The notes under the pieces: generated by a model
Told to the model about the DNA's origin: nothing
What the model saw: the letters and a program-made list of their open reading frames with translations, nothing else
The model's database searches: none
NCBI RefSeq assembly: GCF_020180945.1
Contig: NZ_JAIPUL010000001.1
Coordinates: 1,302,001-1,366,000, forward strand
DNA length: 64,000 nucleotides
Direction: 5' to 3'
Source of the DNA: Lacticaseibacillus kribbianus
GTDB lineage: Bacteria; Bacillota; Bacilli; Lactobacillales; Lactobacillaceae
Part shown: positions 44,835-57,557 of the stretch, one piece after another
Position numbering within the stretch: position 1 is the stretch's first letter
Layout: each line of letters begins with the position of its first letter
Position numbers and translations under genes: made by a program

Positions 44835-47800
44835 TTACTGCTTACCGGGTTTTGCCTTGGCCAGTGTCTCCTCGGCCCGCTTGACCTCTTCAGGGATGTG
44901 GCCCAGGAAAAAGTCTTCCACGCGATTCCAGAAGAACTCGGTGTAATCCGCCGCCACCTCGGCTTTATCGTTTCCCTGGCCTTTATGCGTGAAGAGGTAC
45001 TCCAGCATTGCCACGTTCTGCCAGTAATCGCGCGTAATTTTCGATAAAATATCATTTTTGTACTTCGGGTTTTTGATGGCCTGTTCCATTCGGTACGTGT
45101 TGTTAATGCGGACGTAGATTTGCGCGTCACCGCCGCTGCGGGTCGAGAAAGTAATCAGGCCGAGACTCTCCAGGAAACCGACGTAGGCGAGCATTAACTC
45201 ATACCGCTCGGATTTATTAGAACCGAAAGTGCGCTTGTAAAACAGCGTAAGTTCTTTATCTTTCAGTGTGAGGCGGCGATTTGGCTGCTCCTCAAAGAGT
45301 TGCGCGTTGAGCTCACGGATCTTGTCAAACAGGTTTGAAAATGTTCGCGTCACCCTGATTTGGTCAGCGCTGGCCTTAATGCGACGCGAGATGATGGCGT
45401 TCTTTGTGTGTTTTTCGTAAACATCACACAGATTGATGAAGCTCGCGACGACCGTCAGCGCCTCGGTCTCGGATTTGACTTCCGATACCCGCTGTTTAAG
45501 TGCGCTCGCCAGTACATCAGCCCGCAGTTGACTGCCCGAGTATGCATACTCGGAAAGGATGTCACGCAGGACCGTTTGGACGCGACTAGAAGCCGCTTTT
45601 GCGGCGTTCAAGCCGTCGTAATCGGACCAGGTCACGTCAATTTGGGTGGCAAAATCGAGTCGATCAAACACCTTCAACATCGGCTTTTGGGCGCGTTCCT
45701 TCTGGTCGAAGATTTGCCGTTTGAAATTTGGATAACTGTTCTTGCGATCCACGTGCCGCCAAAAGTCTGCCATCCGCAGGCTGTACACTGTCGGAAAGCC
45801 TTCTTGGGCCTCCCGAACCATATCGAGGTATGGCCCGAGTTTCGATTGAAGCAGGTGCGCGGCCTCCTCGCGCCGCACGAGCACAAGCTCCTTGCCAAAG
45901 ACTGACTTTGGTCGCGCAACGAATGGTGCGTAGTTGTACGTCCCGTTGGAGGCGAAGTCCTTCTCGAGCATCAACAGAATGATTTTCAGCTTGTTGTCTG
46001 CCTGGTTGTCTTTATCGTCATCAAGATCGAGGACGTACTTGAAGTCCTCCGCGCTGATCACGAGGTTGCGGCTGCCGCGATTTTGCTTGTACAGCTCCAA
46101 AATCTTCTTCATGGCATCCTTGAGCTGCCAGGTTTTGATAGTGGACATGCCGTGCAGCTGCTTGACGTACTTGAAGTCATCCGGCTTCAGAAAATCGAAG
46201 ACGGCATTCCCGCGCGGCACCAACTCATGCTTGCGTGCCACACGGCCGATTTCCTGAACGTAGTCAACCACATCACCGGTTGGGGCGTAGTGGTAGACGT
46301 TCTTAATGTCCGGGATATCAATGCCCATCCCGAATGCCTTCGTAGCAAACATGAACAGTGCCTTGCCGTCCTTAAAGTCATTCAGACTGTTGAGCTTATC
46401 AGGCGCTGTCATATTGCCGTAGTAGGCCCGACTCTGGTCGCCAAGCTTCGGCGTTTCCGAGATTGCACGCTTCACCGCGTTTAACAGCTTCACCGTCGGA
46501 AAATAGATTAACGTTTTTTCACCGTTACGAAGCCAGATCCGCATGCGCTTCTCGAGAATGGTGGCCTTCACCTCGAGGCTATCCCTGCCCTTCAAAGGAT
46601 TGAGCTGCGTAATCTGCATGTCGATGTCGTCGCGCTTGACATAGCCGATGTAGCGAATCGGGTCGATCATGTTGAGGCTGTCGCGAATGTCCCGGAACAT
46701 ATCGCTCGTACCCCCGACTGTGGCGGTTGCTGTGAAGGTGACAATCGGGAAATGCTGCGCCTTGCGCAGCTTCTGCAGGTACAGGCCGAGGTACCAGTAA
46801 TCCGCGCGGAAGCTCTTCCCCCAGGTCACAACGGTGTGCGCCTCGTCCACAATCACCATCCCGATGTGCCGATCGCCGATGATTTGGGTGATATCCGCCT
46901 GGTTTTGAAGCGTCTCCGGCGACAGGTAGAGCAGGTCAATCTCGTTGTTCTTGATCTGTTGAACAATCTCCTCCTTCTCGCTGGGCGCCAAGGCCGAGTT
47001 AATCGTGCGGGCATTCTGGATGCCGTGCGCCATCATACTGTCGACCTGGTCCGTCATTAACCCAATCAACGGCGAAATGATAATCGTCAGCGGTCGTTCT
47101 GCGGGATGCTTGGCAAGGAGGTACAGGGCCGGAATCTGGAACATGACGGACTTCCCGGCGCCGGTCGAGGCGGTGATGAACACGTCACGCGGCACTTTGC
47201 CCTTCAGTGCGACTTCCGCCTGATCCACAATATCCTCGATGATGCGGGCCTGTGAGACCTCGATGGTTGTATTGGCGCCAGAATCAGGATCCTTGTACAT
47301 CTTCAACGGGCGAAAACCGTCGTAGTGCCAGTTCTCTTTCAGAATTGCCAGGTAGGCCGCTTCGTTCTGAACGGGGCGCAAAACCGGAATCTGGCGATAG
47401 CCGGTGATGCGGCTCGCAAACCCAAGCTTCACCAGGACCCGCAGTTGTTTCAACCGCTCTTCGCTTTGGGAGCTGTCTTCAAGCTTGGTCGTGAAGGCAA
47501 CCTTCAAATCATGCACGGGGGCCTGGACAAGCTGAGTCATAAAGTGCTGAAAATCACTCTCGGAGGACTCGAGATTAAAGACCGACGCTTCCGCAGGCTC
47601 CTCCAGAATTGAGACCGGCACTACGTCGAGTTCGGCCGCCGTCCACAGCGGTTGCGTCTGAATTTTCAGTCGCGAGTCTTTGGGAACCTCGGCGCACCGG
47701 ACATAATATGTCCCATCCAATCGGTCGATCTGCTCGTAAAACCGATAGAAAACGTCGGCCAGCGACGCAAGCTCATCGGGAAGATCCTCAGCATCATTCT

Positions 47801-48179
47801 GAGACAGCGACTGATAGGCTTCGTCAACGTGGTCAAAGGGCGTATACAGAGGCTGCAGGCGCGGGTACAGATTATTCTCGAGAACAAGCACCCGCTTGTC
47901 TCCAAAAAGTGGCACGCTCCACCCGGCGGCGTTCACTTGGAGAAATTCCTCGAAGGTGAGCCAGCACCAGTGACCGCCCTGAAGTGCGACCATCCACTTC
48001 GCATAGTCACTGCTGGATTGCTGGGCAATCTCATCGATGCCGGCCCCGACAGGCAGGCTGCTCAGCTTGTTTGGTAACGCCGCTAAGGAATCGGGCGCAA
48101 AGCCCTTCATGACAACGACACTGTCGGGTGTGTCATAACCGCGTGCCGCAATTGTTGTGTTAATGTCCAACTTACTCAA
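44835..48179 (-). CDS. Large RecQ-like SF2 DNA helicase
   Basis: Protein of 1114 residues. The RecQ-type helicase core lies at about 305-660: Walker A TGAGKS (339-344), DEAH (445-448), motif III TATAT (483-487) and motif VI QEIGRVAR (642-649). It has a 300-residue N-terminal extension with no known domain and a 450-residue C-terminal part that is not an HRDC domain by eye. Ordinary RecQ has 590-700 residues. It starts with TTG at 48179, eight bases inside the sigma gene, with AAGGAGGA ahead of it, so it is translationally coupled. Likely a defence or stress effector; the biochemical role is inferred only from the helicase core. Confidence 0.85.
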   Translation of the reverse strand: MSKLDINTTIAARGYDTPDSVVVMKGFAPDSLAALPNKLSSLPVGAGIDEIAQQSSSDYAKWMVALQGGHWCWLTFEEFLQVNAAGWSVPLFGDKRVLVLENNLYPRLQPLYTPFDHVDEAYQSLSQNDAEDLPDELASLADVFYRFYEQIDRLDGTYYVRCAEVPKDSRLKIQTQPLWTAAELDVVPVSILEEPAEASVFNLESSESDFQHFMTQLVQAPVHDLKVAFTTKLEDSSQSEERLKQLRVLVKLGFASRITGYRQIPVLRPVQNEAAYLAILKENWHYDGFRPLKMYKDPDSGANTTIEVSQARIIEDIVDQAEVALKGKVPRDVFITASTGAGKSVMFQIPALYLLAKHPAERPLTIIISPLIGLMTDQVDSMMAHGIQNARTINSALAPSEKEEIVQQIKNNEIDLLYLSPETLQNQADITQIIGDRHIGMVIVDEAHTVVTWGKSFRADYWYLGLYLQKLRKAQHFPIVTFTATATVGGTSDMFRDIRDSLNMIDPIRYIGYVKRDDIDMQITQLNPLKGRDSLEVKATILEKRMRIWLRNGEKTLIYFPTVKLLNAVKRAISETPKLGDQSRAYYGNMTAPDKLNSLNDFKDGKALFMFATKAFGMGIDIPDIKNVYHYAPTGDVVDYVQEIGRVARKHELVPRGNAVFDFLKPDDFKYVKQLHGMSTIKTWQLKDAMKKILELYKQNRGSRNLVISAEDFKYVLDLDDDKDNQADNKLKIILLMLEKDFASNGTYNYAPFVARPKSVFGKELVLVRREEAAHLLQSKLGPYLDMVREAQEGFPTVYSLRMADFWRHVDRKNSYPNFKRQIFDQKERAQKPMLKVFDRLDFATQIDVTWSDYDGLNAAKAASSRVQTVLRDILSEYAYSGSQLRADVLASALKQRVSEVKSETEALTVVASFINLCDVYEKHTKNAIISRRIKASADQIRVTRTFSNLFDKIRELNAQLFEEQPNRRLTLKDKELTLFYKRTFGSNKSERYELMLAYVGFLESLGLITFSTRSGGDAQIYVRINNTYRMEQAIKNPKYKNDILSKITRDYWQNVAMLEYLFTHKGQGNDKAEVAADYTEFFWNRVEDFFLGHIPEEVKRAEETLAKAKPGKQ

Positions 48180-49395
48180 TCGTATAGTCCTCCTTACCGT
48201 CTCTGTCCATCTTACGCTTCAAGCGCCTCAACGCTTTGGATTCAATCTGCCGAATCCGCTCACGGGTCACGCCCATCTGTTGACCAACTTCTTCGAGCGT
48301 GTGGGTCTGATCGTCCTCAAAACCAAAGCGCATGTCAATGACTTGCGCCTGGCGCGGTGTGAGGTACGCGGTCAATAACCCGTGGATGCTTTGCCGCGCG
48401 GACTCGTTCAGCGCCTCTGTCTCCGGATCAATGGCAGGCGCGAGCCCTCCGCTGAAGTCGGTCACGATGAAGTCGCCGAGCTCTGTACCCCCCTCGCCAT
48501 CCGCCTCGATCAGCTTGTTCAGCGAGGCCGCGCTGCGAAACTGGTAGATCAGGCGCTGGTAGTCGTGATACTTGTCCAGGTCGATTTCTAGCGCTGCGCA
48601 AATTTCGTCAACGTTGATCTTCCCCAAGTCTTTAAGCTGACTCTGCTCGAGCCTAGTCATCTTGTTAATCTTCTCAACAAGGTGCACCGGAAGCCGGATC
48701 ATCGACCCGTCATCGGCGATATGTCGGGTGATTGACTGCCGAATCCATTCCGTGGCGTAGGTGGATAATGATACGCCCATTTTCGGGTCAAATTTTTCGA
48801 TTGCCTTGATCAGGCCCTCATTCCCATACCCGATCAGATCATCAAGGGTGAGGCAGGTGCGACTCGCCTGCCTAACGTACCTCAATGCGACTTTTCGCAC
48901 CAGCCCCTGATTGGCGATAAAGAGATTCTCGTAGACCGCTTGGCTCCGATCCCGGCTTTGCTGGTACTCCGCCACCATCGCCGTATTATCAGCAAATCCG
49001 CGCTGGATGTGAATGGTGTCAAGCGTTCCGGCGTCGATGTCCGCGATCACCTGATTGGGATCAAAATCATCCACTGGTGTCGCATCTTTCTTCACGGGTA
49101 ACGGATTGTTCTTCACTGGCGCTGGATTGTTCTTCACTGATGGCGTCATCGGACACGCTCTCGTCGGCACCGCATTTTTGAGGTTGCAGAGGAAGCCGTT
49201 CGCTTCCAGCGCTTCTCGAAAGGCCAGACCTTTGTACCCAAGGATCGGGTCCTTCACAATTCGCCCCGCCTTGAGCGCCTCCGCCAAGCCCGCCTGCACC
49301 TGAATGACGGAATCCGCGATGAGTCGCCCGCCATACCGCTCTTTCAGATAATCCTGCCACGTCAATCTAGAAGTCTCACGCACTCGTTGTGTCAC
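48172..49395 (-). CDS. RpoD-like sigma-70 factor with N-terminal extension
   Basis: Protein of 407 residues. Residues 1-150 are not sigma-like and contain a repeated Val-Lys-Asn-Asn-Pro linker (about 86-103). Sigma region 2 is at about 155-240 with FDPKMGVSLSTYATEWIRQSI, region 3 follows, and region 4 is at about 345-400 with GVTRERIRQIESKALRRLK. Regions 2.4 and 4.2 resemble those of housekeeping sigma factors, so it may read ordinary promoters. It lacks the usual region 1.1. GTG start after GGGGGTGATGAA. It is the first gene of the operon with the RecQ-like helicase. A second RpoD-like factor is unusual for lactobacilli. Confidence 0.88.
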   Translation of the reverse strand: MTQRVRETSRLTWQDYLKERYGGRLIADSVIQVQAGLAEALKAGRIVKDPILGYKGLAFREALEANGFLCNLKNAVPTRACPMTPSVKNNPAPVKNNPLPVKKDATPVDDFDPNQVIADIDAGTLDTIHIQRGFADNTAMVAEYQQSRDRSQAVYENLFIANQGLVRKVALRYVRQASRTCLTLDDLIGYGNEGLIKAIEKFDPKMGVSLSTYATEWIRQSITRHIADDGSMIRLPVHLVEKINKMTRLEQSQLKDLGKINVDEICAALEIDLDKYHDYQRLIYQFRSAASLNKLIEADGEGGTELGDFIVTDFSGGLAPAIDPETEALNESARQSIHGLLTAYLTPRQAQVIDMRFGFEDDQTHTLEEVGQQMGVTRERIRQIESKALRRLKRKMDRDGKEDYTIE

Positions 49396-49414
49396 TTCAT
49401 CACCCCCAAAGAAT

Positions 49415-49444
49415 TAAAAAAGGTCGTACACTAAATGCACGACC
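49415..49444 (-). terminator. Leader terminator of the sigma-RecQ operon
   Basis: Nine-base arms GGTCGTGCA and TGTACGACC (one G-U pair) with a TTTAG loop, followed by TTTTTT. It lies between promoter and start codon, so it is an attenuator and not the end of another gene. Confidence 0.85.
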
Positions 49445-49454
49445 CTCCGAGGCT

Positions 49455-49551
49455 GATCTGCATCCGTCTATGGTGGGGCACGTTGCCTTTCGGTACGCTG
49501 CCGGTTGGTCACAGTGCATAGCCACTACCAACGCTCTTGATACATACGATC
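49455..49551 (-). promoter_or_regulatory. S-box (SAM-type) riboswitch-like leader
   Basis: Read on the minus strand the leader folds as in S-box RNAs. P1 pairs TGTATC (49544-49539) with GATGCA (49464-49459), extended by GATC/GATC. The joining strand is AAGAG. P2 pairs GTTGGT with ACCAAC. CGGCAGC and GTGCC stand where S-box RNAs have CGGCAAC and GGTGCC, around a P3 capped by CC-GAAA-GG. The P2 loop CTATG (49521-49517) can form the pseudoknot with CATAG (49472-49468). No P4 is present, as in SAM-IV or SAM-I/IV types. The P1 strand GATGCA can also pair with TGCATT in the terminator, giving an OFF switch. One deviation: the second A of GGCAAC is G. Confidence 0.55.
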
Positions 49552-49563
49552 TTATTTAACTAC

Positions 49564-49591
49564 ATAATAGCGCGTGAGCATTCGATGTCAA
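49564..49591 (-). promoter_or_regulatory. Promoter of the sigma-RecQ operon
   Basis: TTGACA (49586-49591) and TATTAT (49564-49569), 16-base spacing, minus strand. It leaves a leader of about 160 bases before the sigma start codon. The remaining 49600-49848 stretch up to the jetD stop has no gene or clear terminator. Confidence 0.75.
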
Positions 49592-49848
49592 GAGTAAACT
49601 GACACTTCTCCTCACTTTGCAAGCGCACAACCAGAATCTGGTTGCGTGTTACGACGGACTTCTCACGCTTCTTTTAAGGTCTAGTCCGACGATTCACCTC
49701 AATCCGCCATTTGTTTGCCGCTTCAGGATTGGTTCAATCGCTTCCAATTATTTCAAACACAAGCACGATTCTGTACCGGTGCTCAGCCCCCCCTCTGCAA
49801 CCGGTGCTCGCCGGTTTCCGCTCCAATACCCGACAAGACTTGGTCCGA

Positions 49849-51075
49849 TCAGTCCGCTTGACTCCCGTTAATCCGCTCAATTTCAGCCGCCAGCCGCGCA
49901 ATAATGGCTTCCTGAAAGACCTTCCGGCGTTCCATCACCATCGCGTGCCGCACCGCAAGCAGCGGCGGCGCGGTGATGTTTTTGAGCTCGATAATCTGAG
50001 TCGCCACGTCGATTGGACTTGATTGGTCTGCCGCCTCCAGGTCCGCAACCGCCATGCCGAAAAAGCGGACGCGGTGCGGGTAGCGGTGCCACAGGCGGTT
50101 CGCCATCCCGAGCCCGGCGGCGTCAAGATCACTGGCGTAATAGATGGTCGAAGATTCCGGCAGCCGCGCAAGGAGCGCCCAGACGGCCGCACTGTACTGA
50201 CCGCTGGTCATGACCATCGGCAGCGCGGGAAACCTCGCGCTCAAAATCGCGAACACACTGGAGTTTTCGATCAGGAACACCTTTGATCCCACCACCGGAC
50301 GCACCGACGCCAATGGCAGCAGACTCATCATGGGCACGTTCCAGACGAGCCGTTCGGCAGCTGCCGCCTCAAACAACGTCGAATCGGCGGTCAGGTTCTG
50401 CACCGTGACGAAGTTCAGCACACTGTCTGGGACCAGGTTGACCTGCAGGTAACGCTCGAACTGATCTGCCGCGGTCTCAACCGGCCGATCAGCGCTGGCG
50501 GCAAGCAGCTTCAGGAGCAGCGCCCCCAGCGGTCGGTCACGATCGAGGGCGTGCGGATTGCCTGTCTGCTGGTAGGCGAACAGGGGCAGCGCGGTTGGCT
50601 GTGTTGGCAGGTGCTGCCACACCGCCTCACCCTGCCGAAGTAGGGCCAGCTCACCCGAGCGATAATAATGGCCCAGCTGACCGTCCCTCAGTAACTCTGC
50701 CACGTGTGGCGCGGTTCGCCGCGCCTCATCATCGAACGCTGCCCGAGCACTCTGCGCGACGACGCGCGCAGCCTCATTCGTAATCAGCGGTTTGCCCGTG
50801 ACCGCAGCCACTACCGCAGTCAGCGGCAGCGTAGCGAAGGCGGTGCTGTCGTAGGCCCGTAGCACCAGCGCGACATCCAGGGTTTTGCTCGCCGTCCACT
50901 CGGTCGCACTGACCCCTAGGAAACTCATGACCGGTTCAGCCGGGTTCAGGCTCGCCTTGGCCACCTTACCCTTGAACTCACCGTACTGACGATAGCGCTT
51001 AGCCAGCGCCGCCATCAACGCCTGGAGCGCAGGCGCGCTTTGGAAGTACGCCCGTGCGTCACTCAGTGTTGCCAT
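49849..51075 (-). CDS. jetD: Wadjet JetD-like topoisomerase-related nuclease (DUF2399)
   Basis: Protein of 408 residues matching the TIGR02679/DUF2399 family. The C-terminal Toprim-like domain has the nuclease Asp cluster in ASDLDAAG (314-321) and a preceding Glu in VFLIENSSVF. In Wadjet systems JetD cleaves circular DNA after the SMC complex extrudes it. It overlaps jetC by 17 bases and has GGAGGTGAACGACG ahead of the ATG. Last gene of the operon. Confidence 0.88.
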   Translation of the reverse strand: MATLSDARAYFQSAPALQALMAALAKRYRQYGEFKGKVAKASLNPAEPVMSFLGVSATEWTASKTLDVALVLRAYDSTAFATLPLTAVVAAVTGKPLITNEAARVVAQSARAAFDDEARRTAPHVAELLRDGQLGHYYRSGELALLRQGEAVWQHLPTQPTALPLFAYQQTGNPHALDRDRPLGALLLKLLAASADRPVETAADQFERYLQVNLVPDSVLNFVTVQNLTADSTLFEAAAAERLVWNVPMMSLLPLASVRPVVGSKVFLIENSSVFAILSARFPALPMVMTSGQYSAAVWALLARLPESSTIYYASDLDAAGLGMANRLWHRYPHRVRFFGMAVADLEAADQSSPIDVATQIIELKNITAPPLLAVRHAMVMERRKVFQEAIIARLAAEIERINGSQAD

Positions 51076-54000
51076 CGTCGTTCACCTCCATCCGATCATT
51101 GTCGCCGTCCGCTGGCATGCTGCTCTGCTTACCGTTCCAGTGAGTCTTAATCGCCGTGACCAAGTCGCTGCCCTGTCGGTGGAGCAGCTCGTAGGTATTA
51201 AGGCTTGGCACCGTCGCGTACTCGCCTTGGAGAAACTGGGAATTCATCACGTAATTGAAGCCTAAGCGATCGATGGTCTTGAATAACTCACTGATGTTGC
51301 GGTCGTCGATGCCGGCGAACGCCTCGTCAAGCGTGATGATGTACGGCGCGCTCGGCCCCGCGTTCTGGTAGCGCGAGTACATCGCCACAAGCAGCGGCGT
51401 GTACATCGTCACCGCCTTTTCCCCGCCGGAGAACTGGTTGAACACCTTATCGGTCAGCGGCCTGCGCTCGCGTCCGGCCTTGGAGAAAAACAGGTGAAAT
51501 TCAAACCAGTTCCGGTAGTCAAGCGCCTCCTGCAGCACCACCGGCATCTGCGGCTGCGCATCGATCGCGGCGTAGGCCTTCTGACGGTCGCTGATCTGTG
51601 CGGCCAAGAAGCGCTGAAGCTTCTGCGTGTCCGCCTCGGTCAGCAGGCGGGCATCCTTGCGAAACAGCCGGACAATCTCCTGGGTGGTGGCGTCGCTGAA
51701 GTCGTCGCGGGGCTTAATCTGCCACGCGATGTGCAGCTTGAGCTCGGAGTTGTTCTCCTGCTCCGCCAGCACCTGGTTCATGCGCGCTACCCAACCTTCC
51801 GCGCTGGTGATTTTCTGCCGAATGACGTTGCCAAGGCTTTCGAAAATGATGGTCTTGAACAACTGCTCCTCGCTGCGCTGCATGGCCAGTCGATCACTTT
51901 CAACCTGATCGGTCAGCAGGGCCTTCAGCGCGCCCAGCAGCTGGTACAGATTGTCGATCATCGCCTCAATCACCATGCGCTGATTGCTCTGGGTGCGCCA
52001 GGCTGCAATTTCCGGCAACTCGGAATGCGTCGCCCAGTCGGGACTCTCGATGAACGGCCGGGTCACCTGTTGCGGGCGAAAATCCATCAGGACCCCGCTG
52101 TGCAGATTGAATTGCTTCCCCGCCCGGTCCAGCAGCGTCGTCAACTCCTCGTCGCTCGGTACGCTTGCTTGACGTGCCGCTGCTAGTGCGTCGTCCCCGC
52201 CGGCCGCCTTCACGGCAGCCGCCTGCGTTCCCAGGAACAGATCTGCAAGGCGCTGTGAGTCGTTTTGCGCCTCCTCTGCCCGTTTCAGGTCGGCTTGGGT
52301 CACCGCCAGCCGCTTGTCCGCCTCAGTATAACTTTCGGTCTGCTGCTTCTGCTCCCGCTGCAGTGCCTGTTCGCGCTGACGCAGCGCGGTAATCTGCGCG
52401 CGAATCTCGGCCAAATCACCCGCCGCGTCCAGCAACTGCTGATTGGCGGTGACCGAGGCCGTCACCGTGGTCACCGTCGCCTCGGCGTCTTGCGCCTGGC
52501 GAGTAGTGGACTCGAGCGTCTCGGCCGCATCGCTTGCCCCTGCTCGCTGTGCCGCCAAAAGCTGCTGCTGGGTGGCCAGGTTGCGCCAGCCAGCGTCCAA
52601 GTCCCGCATCGTATCACGGTAGGCCGACAACGCGATCCGGGCATCGCGGTAAGCCTGCGCCGTCTGCGCAAGGGCATCTTGGCTCATCAGACGACGCTGC
52701 TTGATCTGCGACGCTTGCTGGTTCGCCTGCGCCTGCCCCAGCCGCTGACTCAGGTCACGCTGTTGTCGGCGAACGTCGGCCATTTTGCGGTCGGTATCCA
52801 GAAGCTCCCGGTTCAACCCGCTCAGGTCATCGTCCACCGGCAGATGCTCCCGGTCGGCCGCAATCTGCTCGTGCTGGGTATTCAGTGCGTCGATTGTCGT
52901 GTTCAGCTCCCCCACCGTCGTCGCCAGGCCGTCGATCTGCGCTTGAAGCGCCTCAATCTGACGCTGACGCGTGCGCGCCTGCGCCGAGGCCCCGATGAAC
53001 TGCGCCTGATAAGCCGCAGGGCCGTGGCCGGTCAGCACACCGATGTTGAAGTCGCCGGTCAGACTGACGGTGGCGACGCCGAGCTCACCTTGCCCAAGCG
53101 CCGCGCCGCTGACCTGCACCGTCTGCAGCAGGTTTTCAACCTGCGACTGAAGCAGTACATCGGCCTCGTCAAGGTCCGGCTGCAGGTAGTCCGCGAGCGT
53201 CTCGGCAAACATCACCGGTTGCGCGCTCAGGGTCTGATCACCCCAGACAAGGCGCCCATCCGTGACAACAAGTGCGTCCAGAACTCCGCTGGTGAGCAGC
53301 GCCCCTTCCAGCGCATCACGCGTGGTTTCGTCAACGGCGGCGCGAAAATCAACCAGCTGGTACAGCGGATGGCCATTTTCGGACTGCCGTGCCGTCGCCA
53401 CCCGCGGCAGTCGCTCCGGAACGGGGTACGGCGCCTTGCGGATTGCTGCCTGCTCGACCAGGAGCCGGTCAATCTCTTTTTCGGCCTGAGCCTTTCGCGC
53501 CTGCTGCTCATGCCGCTCAGCGATCAGCGCCTGCTGAGCGGCCTCAAACGCCGCATGCAGCGGGCGAAGCGCCAGAGACCACTCCGGCATCTCGGCGGTG
53601 TACAGATGATCCATGTTCCGCTGCACTTCACCGATTACCTCCGGCGCCACCGCCGCGGTCCAGGAATCGCGCTGGGTCAAAAGAAGGCGCTTGAGTCGAT
53701 CCAGCTCGTCATCGTACTGCGCCTGCCAGTTAAACTGCTCACGCTTCAGTCGATCCAGCTCCGCATTGGCCTTCTCCAACGCCTCATTCAGGCGCGTGAC
53801 CTCACGCCCCAACTCATCAAGTGTGACGAACAGCTCGATGACCGCCTCAAGGTGCTGTCGGTACGGCGTGATCCGGTCATCAACGGTCGCGAACGCCACG
53901 CGACTTTCCGGTTCTTCACCGGCAACCAAGAGCACATGCTCGGCGGTAAAGCCGGCCTTCGCTGCGAAGTCATCGGCTGACTGCCGCAGCGTTGCCAACG

Positions 54001-55156
54001 CTGCCTGCTTGGCGTCCAATTCCTTCACAGCGGCCGCCACCGCCGCCTGTGCGCTGCGCAGTTTGGTCTCTGCCTTGATCACCCGCTGACGCAGCGCATC
54101 CCGCTGGCTGGTCGCTTTGGCCAGTGCCGCCGCCAGCTTGGCCGCCTCGTCCGCAAGATCGAACCCGGCGGAGTGCTCCAGGCGCTCCCGCTGGGTGAAG
54201 GCGGCCTGCTGATCGGCCTCAATGGTCGCCAAACGCGCCTTAGCGGCCGCCATCGTGGCCATCAAGGACCCCTGCTCGTCAGCCAGGCGCGTCACCTGCG
54301 CCTGGGCGGCCTTGGCCTCGCGCTGTGCCCGCGCCGTCTGCGCGACCACCTTGGCCAGCTGGGCATTTTGATACTTGGCGTAGGCGTTCATCAGCGGCTT
54401 GAGCTCCTGCAACTCGTTTTGATTGTTCTCGACGTTCTTGTTGATCGCCTCAATCTGCTTGAGGGTCTGGGCGCTCGCCTGCACGTTATCGACCTTCAGG
54501 CTGGGCAGCGATTCGGTCAGAATGGCCTCCAACACCTCGGGTTTGAAGTCGCTGTTAAGCTTCGGGCTGCGGAGGTTAATCATCAGCCGAATGGCATCGT
54601 CGAAGTCCTCAACGCTTTCGAAGCCGAATACGTGCGTCCGGACGTACTCGGCGTAGTCGTGCTGGTGCTCGAAGAATCGGCCACCGGTCTGCATCGCACG
54701 GCGCAGCGCCCGTTTCGGCAGCGGCGCCGCGCTGTCGCCGGTGTCGTTGGTTGTCAGCCGAAGCTCTTGACCGATGCGCCGCCCATCTTCAACGGCGAAA
54801 AACCACCGGGTCAGATCCCCACCGCGCCGGGCGTGGAGCCCCAGCCCCGTCGTCAGGTACTGCGCCCCGTTGCGGTACTCCGCCCACAGGTAGCCCACGG
54901 CCTCCTCTTTGTGGTTGGCGTCGTACTCTCCGAGCAGCAGGTCGGCCATCTTGCGGTCCCGACTCCCGAACGAGTCCATTCGTTGAGCGCTCGTCACCCC
55001 ATCCAAAAGCACAGGCAGCAGGCTCTGCATCGTGACTGATTTGCCCGATGCATTGTGACCGCGCAGCAGCATGTGGCCGTCGCTGAGCTCGAACACCATC
55101 TCGGGGTAATACCAGAAGTTGACCAGCCCCATGCGATTTAACACGAATTTACTCAT
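51059..55156 (-). CDS. jetC: Wadjet JetC-like SMC/MukB-type ATPase
   Basis: Protein of 1365 residues of the TIGR02680 type. Walker A GHNASGKS is at 33-40. Long coiled coils rich in Ala, Gln and Glu fill about 240-600 and 680-960, with a globular hinge-like region between. The C-terminal head has signature FSGGEKAV (about 1242) and Walker B YIITLDEAF (about 1271-1279). It is the DNA-loop-extruding motor of the Wadjet complex. The start at 55156 follows AAAGGAGACAAGCA and overlaps the JetAB stop by 8 bases. Confidence 0.92.
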   Translation of the reverse strand: MSKFVLNRMGLVNFWYYPEMVFELSDGHMLLRGHNASGKSVTMQSLLPVLLDGVTSAQRMDSFGSRDRKMADLLLGEYDANHKEEAVGYLWAEYRNGAQYLTTGLGLHARRGGDLTRWFFAVEDGRRIGQELRLTTNDTGDSAAPLPKRALRRAMQTGGRFFEHQHDYAEYVRTHVFGFESVEDFDDAIRLMINLRSPKLNSDFKPEVLEAILTESLPSLKVDNVQASAQTLKQIEAINKNVENNQNELQELKPLMNAYAKYQNAQLAKVVAQTARAQREAKAAQAQVTRLADEQGSLMATMAAAKARLATIEADQQAAFTQRERLEHSAGFDLADEAAKLAAALAKATSQRDALRQRVIKAETKLRSAQAAVAAAVKELDAKQAALATLRQSADDFAAKAGFTAEHVLLVAGEEPESRVAFATVDDRITPYRQHLEAVIELFVTLDELGREVTRLNEALEKANAELDRLKREQFNWQAQYDDELDRLKRLLLTQRDSWTAAVAPEVIGEVQRNMDHLYTAEMPEWSLALRPLHAAFEAAQQALIAERHEQQARKAQAEKEIDRLLVEQAAIRKAPYPVPERLPRVATARQSENGHPLYQLVDFRAAVDETTRDALEGALLTSGVLDALVVTDGRLVWGDQTLSAQPVMFAETLADYLQPDLDEADVLLQSQVENLLQTVQVSGAALGQGELGVATVSLTGDFNIGVLTGHGPAAYQAQFIGASAQARTRQRQIEALQAQIDGLATTVGELNTTIDALNTQHEQIAADREHLPVDDDLSGLNRELLDTDRKMADVRRQQRDLSQRLGQAQANQQASQIKQRRLMSQDALAQTAQAYRDARIALSAYRDTMRDLDAGWRNLATQQQLLAAQRAGASDAAETLESTTRQAQDAEATVTTVTASVTANQQLLDAAGDLAEIRAQITALRQREQALQREQKQQTESYTEADKRLAVTQADLKRAEEAQNDSQRLADLFLGTQAAAVKAAGGDDALAAARQASVPSDEELTTLLDRAGKQFNLHSGVLMDFRPQQVTRPFIESPDWATHSELPEIAAWRTQSNQRMVIEAMIDNLYQLLGALKALLTDQVESDRLAMQRSEEQLFKTIIFESLGNVIRQKITSAEGWVARMNQVLAEQENNSELKLHIAWQIKPRDDFSDATTQEIVRLFRKDARLLTEADTQKLQRFLAAQISDRQKAYAAIDAQPQMPVVLQEALDYRNWFEFHLFFSKAGRERRPLTDKVFNQFSGGEKAVTMYTPLLVAMYSRYQNAGPSAPYIITLDEAFAGIDDRNISELFKTIDRLGFNYVMNSQFLQGEYATVPSLNTYELLHRQGSDLVTAIKTHWNGKQSSMPADGDNDRMEVNDDGNTE

Positions 55157-57557
55157 TGCTTGTCTCCTTTGCCCCGTACGTCCCATCCAGCCGCCCAAAC
55201 AGCGGCGTGATGATCACCGCGGTCTCGGTCGTCCGCACCATCCCCGCCGACAGCGCCTGCGCCAGTAGCAACTCACTCATTTCCTTGACCGACCGCTCGC
55301 GATCGCTCTTGGCCAGCCAGTCATGATTGATGGCCGTCTGCTCGCCGACCATCGCGACCCACTGCGCCCGCGTCAGGCGAATCTGGCCGAACTCGTCCGG
55401 CTCCCAAGCGGACGCTCGCAGCTTGTGCCCCATCACCATCAGCAGATCATCAATGTTCCTGCCACCAGGGAGCTGGCCGAATCCCGCTCGGCGCTCCGAC
55501 AGCGTCAACATCGCCACGTTTTTGGTCAGCTCGAACGCAAATTCTGTGTACTGAGCCAAAAATTGGTGCAGGGACGCGGCCTGATTGCGCATGTAGGTGA
55601 ACAGCGGCACCGTCTCGGGCGTCCGACAGAGCCCCGGTGTGAACAGGAGCTCCTGCAGCACCTGCTGCCGGGTGGTCAGCTCGGTGCGGTTCGCCACCGC
55701 AGCGTGCCAGTCGGGAAAACCGCCGAGGTCGTCCACCTCGCGCGCCAGAAAGTAGGTCGAATAGGTCGTCGCCATCAGTAGGACCTCCAGGCCACTGCTC
55801 TCGTATCCGGCCAGTTCTCCATCGAGGCGGGTCAGCAGATTCAGCTGCGTCATCACATTGAGCACGCGCACCAGGCTGCGTCGCTGAGCGAACTGAGTCC
55901 AGTCCACCGCGCGCGCCATGATTTCATTCAGCGCGGTCACCATCTCCGACAGCAGGAACGGCTGATCAGCCCCGAGCGTCTCCGTGTACGTTAAGATCGC
56001 GGTCATGAATACGAAGTCCATCGGCTGTGTCAGACCGTTCACCGTCATGAAGCCGCGCGGCCGTGCCATCAGCTTCTCCAGCTTGTAGAAATCGGGGTGC
56101 TGAATCAGCTCAAGCCCCAGGTTCTCCAGGCACAACCGGCGAAGGTCAAGGAAGTTGCGGCGAATCAGCGTGTACGCACCGGGATTCTCTGTCGCCAGAA
56201 TCACGCGATTCTCGGCCAGCGCCATCAGCGCCTGCGAGATGTAACGCAGCAGGTCGCGGCGCATCGCCCGCGGTAGACTTGCGTGGTCGCTGAGCCTCAG
56301 CTTGCCGTCATCCAAGTAGCGAATCCACAGTGCCTTGTAGGCGGCCTGCTCCTCGCGGTACTGCTTGGCAACCGCCGCCGACGCCGCCCGGTCGCGCTTG
56401 AACGGCTTGACCGCCACCCGCCTGCGGTTGGCACGACTCTTCGACGTCAGCTGGGTCGGACTCAACTTGAGCGTCCAGAGGTCCGTCATTGTACCCTGGG
56501 CATCCGCCTTCGGGGCCTGGATGTGCAAGGTTTTGTCGAAGCTGAGAAAGGCCGCGGCCAGCTGATTGGCTGCCTGGAGCTTCTCCGCTTCCACATCCGG
56601 TCCCTCCGCAATCTCAAGGAACCACTGCACGAGCTGACGGTAGTCCTTGGCCCGACTGCGTTGTTGCTGCAAGTTCGCGGTCAGTGACTGAATCACCCGG
56701 GTAATGCGATCCAGGGCGCTTGTGGTCTGCTGAATCAGGTTGTGATACTCACTCGGCCGCGATCCCGTGTCAAAAAACCACCGGTGCAGGGCCTGCCACT
56801 GGTTGTGAACCGATGCCGCGAGGTCGGCCTCGTCCGCAGCCTCGAAACTCGGCTGGGTCGTTTTCTGCCGCAGCAGTTCCGCTGCAACCTCTTCTAGCAT
56901 CGACGACGGCAGACTGCGAATCGTCTCCTGGATCTCCGCAGCGCTCTGCTGCATCTTACGAATGAACACCTGCAGGTAATGGACAAACTCGGCCTTGTAG
57001 CCCAGAAATTCGCGCGTTTGAAGCATCTGATCCATCTGAACCGACGTCAGGTAGTTAACATACAGCGCGGCCCCCTGCTGAAGCTCCTCGAACAGCCCCA
57101 TCACCTGCTGCCACTGATCCGCAAGATCCACCTCGTGCAGGGTAGCCAGCGGCGTCAACAGCTTGAGCAGCCGTTCGAAAAGATGGGCGTTCAGGTCGCC
57201 GGATTCCGCGTCCTCCTGTGGTAGGTGAGCCATCAGGTGCTCAATGGCGATGCTGGCCGCGGTGATTTGATAGCGAAAATGCTTGTTCTTGAACTCCTCG
57301 ATGCTGCGCGCCTGGTTCATCTCCTGGCGCCGGGTCAGATTGCCGTTGGCCACCAAGTAGTTCAGATCGGCCTCCAGCTGCTCATCCGTGTAATCGGTCA
57401 ACCCCTGCGCCCGCACGCCCTCGAGCAGCTCATCGCGGTACAGCGCCGCCCGCACGCTAAGATTCTGGGTGTAACAAAAATGCATGATGCGCCGGTAGCG
57501 ACTGCTGTTCTCAACGTCGAGGTACGCGACCGCCCTGACTCGCTCGTAATCCGCCAT
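55149..57557 (-). CDS. jetAB: Fused Wadjet JetA-JetB protein (kleisin and KITE parts)
   Basis: Protein of 802 residues. The N-terminal half (about 1-455) resembles DUF2397/TIGR02677 (JetA, kleisin-like): AYLDVENSSRYRRIMHFCY and the following winged-helix region. The C-terminal half (about 458-802) resembles DUF2398/TIGR02678 (JetB, KITE-like): TLIRRNFLDLRRLCLENLG, the RRSLVRVLNVMTQLNLL stretch and the final ITPLFGRLDGTYG. Separate JetA and JetB add up to about this length, and no other gene lies between this one and jetC. First gene of the operon. ATG at 57557 after GGGGGC; an in-frame TTG is five codons upstream. Confidence 0.8.
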   Translation of the reverse strand: MADYERVRAVAYLDVENSSRYRRIMHFCYTQNLSVRAALYRDELLEGVRAQGLTDYTDEQLEADLNYLVANGNLTRRQEMNQARSIEEFKNKHFRYQITAASIAIEHLMAHLPQEDAESGDLNAHLFERLLKLLTPLATLHEVDLADQWQQVMGLFEELQQGAALYVNYLTSVQMDQMLQTREFLGYKAEFVHYLQVFIRKMQQSAAEIQETIRSLPSSMLEEVAAELLRQKTTQPSFEAADEADLAASVHNQWQALHRWFFDTGSRPSEYHNLIQQTTSALDRITRVIQSLTANLQQQRSRAKDYRQLVQWFLEIAEGPDVEAEKLQAANQLAAAFLSFDKTLHIQAPKADAQGTMTDLWTLKLSPTQLTSKSRANRRRVAVKPFKRDRAASAAVAKQYREEQAAYKALWIRYLDDGKLRLSDHASLPRAMRRDLLRYISQALMALAENRVILATENPGAYTLIRRNFLDLRRLCLENLGLELIQHPDFYKLEKLMARPRGFMTVNGLTQPMDFVFMTAILTYTETLGADQPFLLSEMVTALNEIMARAVDWTQFAQRRSLVRVLNVMTQLNLLTRLDGELAGYESSGLEVLLMATTYSTYFLAREVDDLGGFPDWHAAVANRTELTTRQQVLQELLFTPGLCRTPETVPLFTYMRNQAASLHQFLAQYTEFAFELTKNVAMLTLSERRAGFGQLPGGRNIDDLLMVMGHKLRASAWEPDEFGQIRLTRAQWVAMVGEQTAINHDWLAKSDRERSVKEMSELLLAQALSAGMVRTTETAVIITPLFGRLDGTYGAKETSNE

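Follow-up and report, generated by a model that had tools for sequence, protein, structure and literature searches.

The window, which denotes the entire 64,000-nucleotide stretch of Lacticaseibacillus kribbianus DNA analyzed here, carries on its minus strand an operon whose first gene (48172..49395) encodes a sigma-70 family protein of 407 aa with regions 2 and 4, and whose second gene (44835..48179) encodes a RecQ-like DEAD/DEAH helicase of 1114 aa (PADLOC C3a193, E 1.4e-132). The operon leader is placed between the sigma gene and a JetD-like gene of Wadjet type II. As JetC and JetD of this Wadjet set (49849-55198) are located directly upstream of the leader, the sigma/RecQ operon adjoins a defence system. 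When the sigma protein was searched against 397 Lactobacillaceae genomes, matches in 394 of them were taken as the housekeeping RpoD; among the matches listed, the proteins of the window (906 bits) and of genome G081 (325 bits) stood out, the next one scoring 170.8 bits. A search of plasmids for the sigma protein gave no place covering 80% of the protein.

The leader region named in the preliminary description (49412-49591, minus strand) extends from the promoter through the U-tract, the aptamer proper occupying 49551-49455. All of the parts claimed there, namely the promoter, P1, P2 and P3, the AAGAG joint, the GGCA and GTGCC core, the P2-loop pseudoknot, and the terminator, were found on the minus strand by direct reading. 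The sigma-70-type promoter TTGACA-16-TATTAT (49564..49591) agrees with the consensus at 11 of 12 positions, and shuffled sequences contain 0.3 such sites on average. Reading, folding, alignment, and covariation all identified the aptamer (49455..49551) as an S-box-type structure without P4, composed of P1, P2 with an internal loop, P3, and the pseudoknot. Its P1 pairs TGTATC (49539..49544) with GATGCA (49459..49464), and both the fold and the alignment extend this stem distally by GATC/GATC (49548-49551 with 49455-49458). The J1/2 segment AAGAG (49534..49538) holds the equivalent of SAM-I G11, an assignment that follows from aligning the element with the SAM-I core (conserved nucleotides as listed in the available part of PMC3764141). 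In the pseudoknot, CTATG of the P2 loop (49517..49521) forms five pairs with CATAG (49468-49472), and P3 (49477..49502) has the SAM-I-like core GGCA-(G)-CG / CG-TGCC with a bulged G at 49498. Only 12 nt lie between P3 and the P1 3' strand, five of them within the pseudoknot, which leaves no room for a P4 stem. The aptamer ends about 60 bases upstream of the sigma gene, and the intervening intrinsic terminator (49418..49448) consists of GGAGGGTCGTGCAT-TTA-GTGTACGACCTTTT followed by a T-run. The minimum-energy structure computed for 49560-49413 includes P1, P2, and P3 (z = -2.33, with 7 of 200 shuffles as good); taken by itself, the fold of the window leader is just mildly unusual, and the proof rests on its relatives.

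Covariation support among homologous leaders, which had been proposed as a check on the element, was found in two alignments. A BLASTN search with the 97-base element detected it in 19 of the 397 Lactobacillaceae genomes, spanning 5 of 40 genera. The own genome has a second copy before another gene, and the L002 stretch, from a metagenome-assembled genome designated 'Lactobacillus sp.', has a copy 98% identical over 97 bases upstream of an orthologous sigma gene. The first alignment comprised 26 copies (24 distinct) and served as the source of the covariance model R1. In it, 98.0% of cells were paired and both sides had changed in 11 of 27 pairs, each value being reached by none of 500 shuffles; further pair types were matched by 8 of 500 shuffles, and slid controls were 24.8-41.6% paired. 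The larger alignment was built from 96 R1 matches, giving 87 distinct rows; its fit followed the nested helices, and so favours them, and left the pseudoknot aside. Including the pseudoknot, 93.9% of its cells were paired, with 541 double-changed cells versus 175 in shuffles (0/500), a covariation score of 0.585 versus 0.166 (0/500), and 21 pairs changed on both sides (1/500); the 59 further pair types were unremarkable (78/500), and slid controls were 29.5-43.0% paired. The pseudoknot, absent from the alignment model, was paired in 92.1% of cells over the 87 rows, and all five of its pairs covaried. The leader is thus confirmed to contain a genuine RNA element.

At E<=0.001, R1 matched 79 of 397 Lactobacillaceae genomes (15 of 40 genera) and 26 of 395 genomes (16 of 80 genera) in an order-level sample. 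In a class-level sample, 6 of 388 genomes matched at E<=1e-6; since the maximum outside the own genome was 42.3 bits, the high-scoring form appears confined to Lactobacillales in the samples searched. The window copy itself scored 111.6 bits (E 8.9e-29) as one of the model's own sequences. R1 also cross-matched apparent classical S-boxes at about 30-47 bits, of which L083 and L091 were scanned and lie above the Rfam cut-off and the remainder were judged by eye, so that the low-scoring genomes in these tallies are a mixture. In another Lactobacillales family, the leaders of L083-L086, L088, L089, L091, and L120 precede proteins of about 80-120 aa, not recognised methionine genes. Among plasmid records, the element was present in one, a Lactiplantibacillus plantarum conjugative plasmid. 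The phage records searched gave no match, and neither an exact 44-base pattern nor a degenerate one matched any viral contig, so that phage carriage of the element is unsupported.

The kinship to S-box RNAs put forward in the preliminary description was borne out by the relatives of the window copy. The SAM-I model RF00162 scored relatives at 29-49 bits, straddling its gathering cut-off of 44.4 bits. On eight loci it gave six matches (29.1-39.8 bits) in five, with none for L003, L010, and L018. Among 21 R1-positive genomes, 17 matched RF00162 at E<=0.01; 16 of the 22 places were under the curated cut-off, and the six above it were all metK leaders. The remaining four genomes (G374, G161, G220, and G184) have metK leaders of the P4-less type yet no RF00162 match. 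For the window copy, the Rfam scan proposed earlier returned no family (the whole window at gathering, 49300-49750 at E up to 10, and L003 at E up to 1), and a search of the own genome with RF00162 gave the other copy (34.1 bits, E 7.3e-6) and not this one. Matches to CRISPR-DR36 and Termite-leu on the leader in a permissive Rfam scan (12.5 bits) were taken as chance.

Across the 96 elements, metK was the next gene on the same strand at 41-171 nt in 24, two of which (L115 and L116) were read as four-stem; the 22 P4-less ones lie about 41-117 nt upstream of metK. P3 and the P1 3' strand are 10-14 nt apart as aligned in all 96 rows, a spacing that is meaningless for the classical leaders among them, in which P4 and the true P1 strand fall outside the aligned stretch. 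Because P4-less relatives precede metK, SAM is by association the most likely ligand of the subfamily. P4-less S-box-like metK leaders were observed in several genera of the family (L082, L087, L090, L092-L096, and L098-L104 without L097; further L106 and L108-L113), several of them under the Rfam cut-off or unmatched, and some with CC/GG in place of GG/CC in P3.

According to the available part of PMC3764141, the conserved SAM-I nucleotides are G11, C44, A45, U57, G58, U7, A87, and U88, of which G11, C44, and G58 hold the methionine part of the ligand and U7 contacts its sulfur. The window copy retains the equivalents of all eight, as do at least 54 of the 55 rows of the main class, which took in L110 and L111, both preceding metK. 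The window copy further shares with SAM-I the conserved core (P1 UAUC/GAU, J1/2 AAGAG, and P3 GGCA-C/GUGCC within GGCAAC/GUGCC), the P2 internal loop with its UGA motif, the pseudoknot from the P2 loop to the 3' joining region, and a transcriptional terminator/antiterminator platform on the P1 3' strand, the last as computed (shuffle p 0.055 for this copy). It differs from SAM-I in having no P4 stem and hence no four-way junction, in preceding non-methionine genes, and in its Rfam scores, 16 of the 22 places mentioned above being under the cut-off, the window copy unmatched, and its paralogue short of 44.4 bits. The element thus falls outside classical SAM-I by P4 and by the Rfam cut-off, while it looks like SAM-I in everything else that can be read from the sequence. 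We accordingly assign the RNA to an S-box subfamily that lacks P4 and that most probably acts as a transcriptional OFF switch sensing SAM.

The riboswitches of the SAM-I/IV class (RF01725), which also lack P4, resemble the element in having a SAM-I-like core outside the four-stem layout. That group is described in the available part of PMC2864571 as being without a P2 internal loop, whereas the window element has one between P2a and P2b. No row for RF01725 appeared in the Rfam scans of the leader and its relatives, one unnamed lower-scoring same-clan overlap having been left out in one scan. SAM-III (SMK box, RF01767), a SAM riboswitch with an unrelated fold and translational control, sits upstream of metK in the same genome. 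The host genome contains one metK match, and a SAM-III riboswitch above the cut-off (68.9 bits) lies on the same strand about 0.7 kb before the matched C-terminal part; from the gene length, we infer that it is directly before metK. With the host metK under SAM-III, the S-box-type copies in this genome are not on its metK.

The preliminary description had also noted that GATGCA is shared between P1 and TGCATT of the terminator. This alternative pairing of the P1 3' strand with the terminator 5' arm (TGCATT at 49434-49439) was verified and extends to GATGCAGATC/GGTCGTGCATT. In stepwise folding, P1 was in the best fold at transcript end 49434 (-31.0), the antiterminator at 49430 (-31.2), and P1 together with a partial terminator at 49426 (-34.6), the antiterminator being the best fold at one of the six transcript ends tried. 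The fold with the complete terminator (-46.5) was favoured by about 7 kcal/mol over the one in which the antiterminator was forced (-39.4), with pseudoknot and ligand energies excluded. Such energy differences are something that an attenuator could use. In a survey of terminators, 89 of 90 distinct elements had a recognised T-run, under a rule that failed to detect the L022 terminator and put the L006 terminator in the wrong place. Over these 89 elements, the P1 3' strand paired with its own terminator at a mean of -8.0 kcal/mol versus -4.8 kcal/mol with terminators of other P1 types, and 9% of swapped terminators, at the median, were as good as the own one. Against shuffled terminators, the antiterminator reached p<=0.05 in 32 of 89 elements. 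The computed pairing and folds therefore speak for the attenuator architecture and the OFF-switch logic proposed earlier.

On these grounds, we consider it probable that a P4-less riboswitch of the SAM-I clan works as a transcriptional OFF switch for the sigma/RecQ operon. Plentiful SAM would be held between P1, P3, and the G of J1/2, whereby P1 would close, GATGCA would be unavailable for the alternative pairing, the terminator would form, and the operon would be off. Under low SAM, GATGCAGATC would pair with the terminator 5' arm (GGTCGTGCATT), and read-through would lead to production of the sigma factor and the helicase. SAM as the ligand, the direction of switching, and a window copy that still works are what we infer from the features described above.

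The A-to-G change in the core had been suggested to signify a shifted ligand. The P3 bulge is A in 78 of the 87 distinct rows and G in nine, namely the window copy, L130, and seven metK leaders of genus g18 (7 of the 22 P4-less metK leaders), and the position is absent from the highly conserved SAM-I nucleotides named in the available part of PMC3764141. Because the same change is common before the SAM synthetase gene, it is weak evidence for a new ligand, and the suggestion found no support. A more general form of this idea, that the same architecture binds a ligand such as SAH, spermidine, or some further compound of cationic or adenosyl type, nonetheless has a precedent in SAM-I variants that sense spermidine, reject SAM, and are altered in J1/2 and in the internal loop of P3 (Salvail et al., 2023, PMC10853860, in its available part), and would fit the non-methionine gene context and a host metK under SAM-III. 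Those variants resemble the element as close SAM-I variants acting as transcriptional off switches on unexpected genes; they have, however, four stems, an altered J1/2 and P3 loop, and polyamine genes, whereas the element lacks P4, keeps the contact positions in J1/2 and P3, and has by eye no polyamine gene among the genes listed. Since, moreover, the metK relatives tie the subfamily to SAM, we regard a changed ligand as unlikely. A slightly smaller chance is given to loss of control, in which the subfamily would be a SAM switch with the window copy and L130 disabled by the bulge change, leaving the operon constitutively attenuated or on. The rarity of G at this position is in its favour, as are the altered UGA motif of L130, which may be decaying, and the small number of examples. 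Three sigma orthologues were found, with the element before two (the window and L002); the sigma/RecQ pair is present in the window genome and in G081 (sigma 45% and helicase 56% identical), the helicase was not found on the L002 stretch, and the pair in G081 has no element within the approximately 850 bases upstream to which the contig extends. Against a loss of control, the pairing and the listed contacts of the window copy are intact, its sequence is nearly that of the L002 copy, and G is tolerated before metK.

In the genus and in near genera, the gene next to the element usually encodes a small protein of about 110-135 aa. A set of 21 such proteins, drawn from 18 loci and including two genes later in the cluster (from L039 and L040), gave a loose alignment with one invariant W and a nearly invariant R..A pair. 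Left out of it were two longer forms of 234 aa (L040) and 333 aa (L039), apparently duplicated versions, and the first genes of L044, L045, and L046, which are different. This small-protein family, seen in L027-L043 mostly as the first gene behind each element, is fast-diverging and has no consistent match in family libraries. For the 21 proteins, Pfam matches at E up to 0.1 were scattered (best E 0.002 in one member, with at most two members per family), and the best PHROGs match had E 0.0025 in one protein. For 18 more distant small proteins, the matches were likewise scattered (best E 0.00013, DUF6800, two members). NCBIfam gave none for four small proteins; of two searched with PADLOC, one had no match and the other resembled Cas5-type proteins weakly (E 0.0035), and the best PDB sequence match had E 0.16. 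That the N-terminus of the sigma protein equals the small-protein domain was unsupported (hhalign probability 0.1%). For 16 elements and their proteins (120 comparisons), the median identity was 85.6% for the RNA versus 25.6% for the protein. Such a disparity could be explained if the terminated leader were a trans-acting small RNA, pairing, for instance, with other mRNAs, and therefore extremely conserved across unrelated genes; since the conserved positions are those of the SAM-I aptamer, a ribosome binding site and a gene follow directly, and the terminators fit their own P1 type better, we consider this very improbable. A chance fold, or an ordinary leader hairpin without relatives, with which the missing Rfam match of the window copy would agree, is ruled out by the conservation and covariation in two alignments, a chance origin being untenable for an element that covaries in its relatives.

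The sigma/RecQ pair is not the usual partner of the RNA element, and, as pointed out in the preliminary description, its context is odd for an S-box RNA, the controlled genes not being methionine genes. In genome G379 (L130/L142), the gene directly behind the element encodes a 1146-aa protein with an internal sigma region 4 (E 4e-8), and the operon (L142:5573-13032) continues with genes for a PbeA-like helicase, an ATPase resembling PbeC/DndD, and a protein of 157 aa. A sigma domain is thus present in the first protein of each of the two large operons that the element directly precedes. In G395 (L144:1087-9042), a set similar to that of G379 in gene order and sequence likeness is preceded by the element together with a small gene; on the Lactiplantibacillus plasmid, a similar-looking set comes first, and the element with its small gene lies behind it. 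The Pbe-like operon of G395 is followed by proteins resembling, by eye, Cas3 and Cas8e of a CRISPR system. Together with sigma/RecQ, the G379, G395, and plasmid cases indicate that the regulon has defence-type genes more than once, as instances and with no claim of enrichment. The predicted regulon would therefore consist mostly of diverging small proteins plus two large operons (sigma/RecQ and sigma-region-4/Pbe-like) of putative defence type. A sigma-70 or sigma-region-4 protein with a helicase in a defence-type operon is also found in MZA (MzaA) and PbeAC/DndD-type systems; unlike in these, the window helicase is of another, RecQ-like family, and the window sigma protein matches MzaA over the general sigma region only, at 204 bits against a cut-off of 800.

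The bacteria concerned have been reported, in the available part of PMC3766115, to have largely lost S-boxes. A literature search of titles and the beginnings of abstracts returned no P4-less S-box in Lactobacillaceae and no SAM switch on defence genes. What is new here is a P4-less S-box subfamily, often missed by the curated model, together with its accessory and defence-type regulon. Its members take two roles: some genera carry them upstream of metK and others upstream of accessory genes, and among the latter is a genome with its metK under SAM-III. If it binds SAM, it would place a SAM switch on defence-type genes. A bolder and tentative reading, which we hold possible though hardly probable, is that Lactobacillales made this stripped-down S-box a standard switch for accessory genes, a SAM gauge that would release sigma-containing defence-type operons and small proteins when SAM falls, for example through a phage that destroys or uses up SAM. 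SAM loss on phage infection as the natural trigger is speculative; were it true, immunity would be under metabolite riboswitch control, and so short an RNA makes bacterial infection sensing via SAM a directly testable question.

The element can also occur in series. At L040/L015 (G363:C39:80170-81665), three copies were observed within 1.5 kb, each followed by a small gene of its own.
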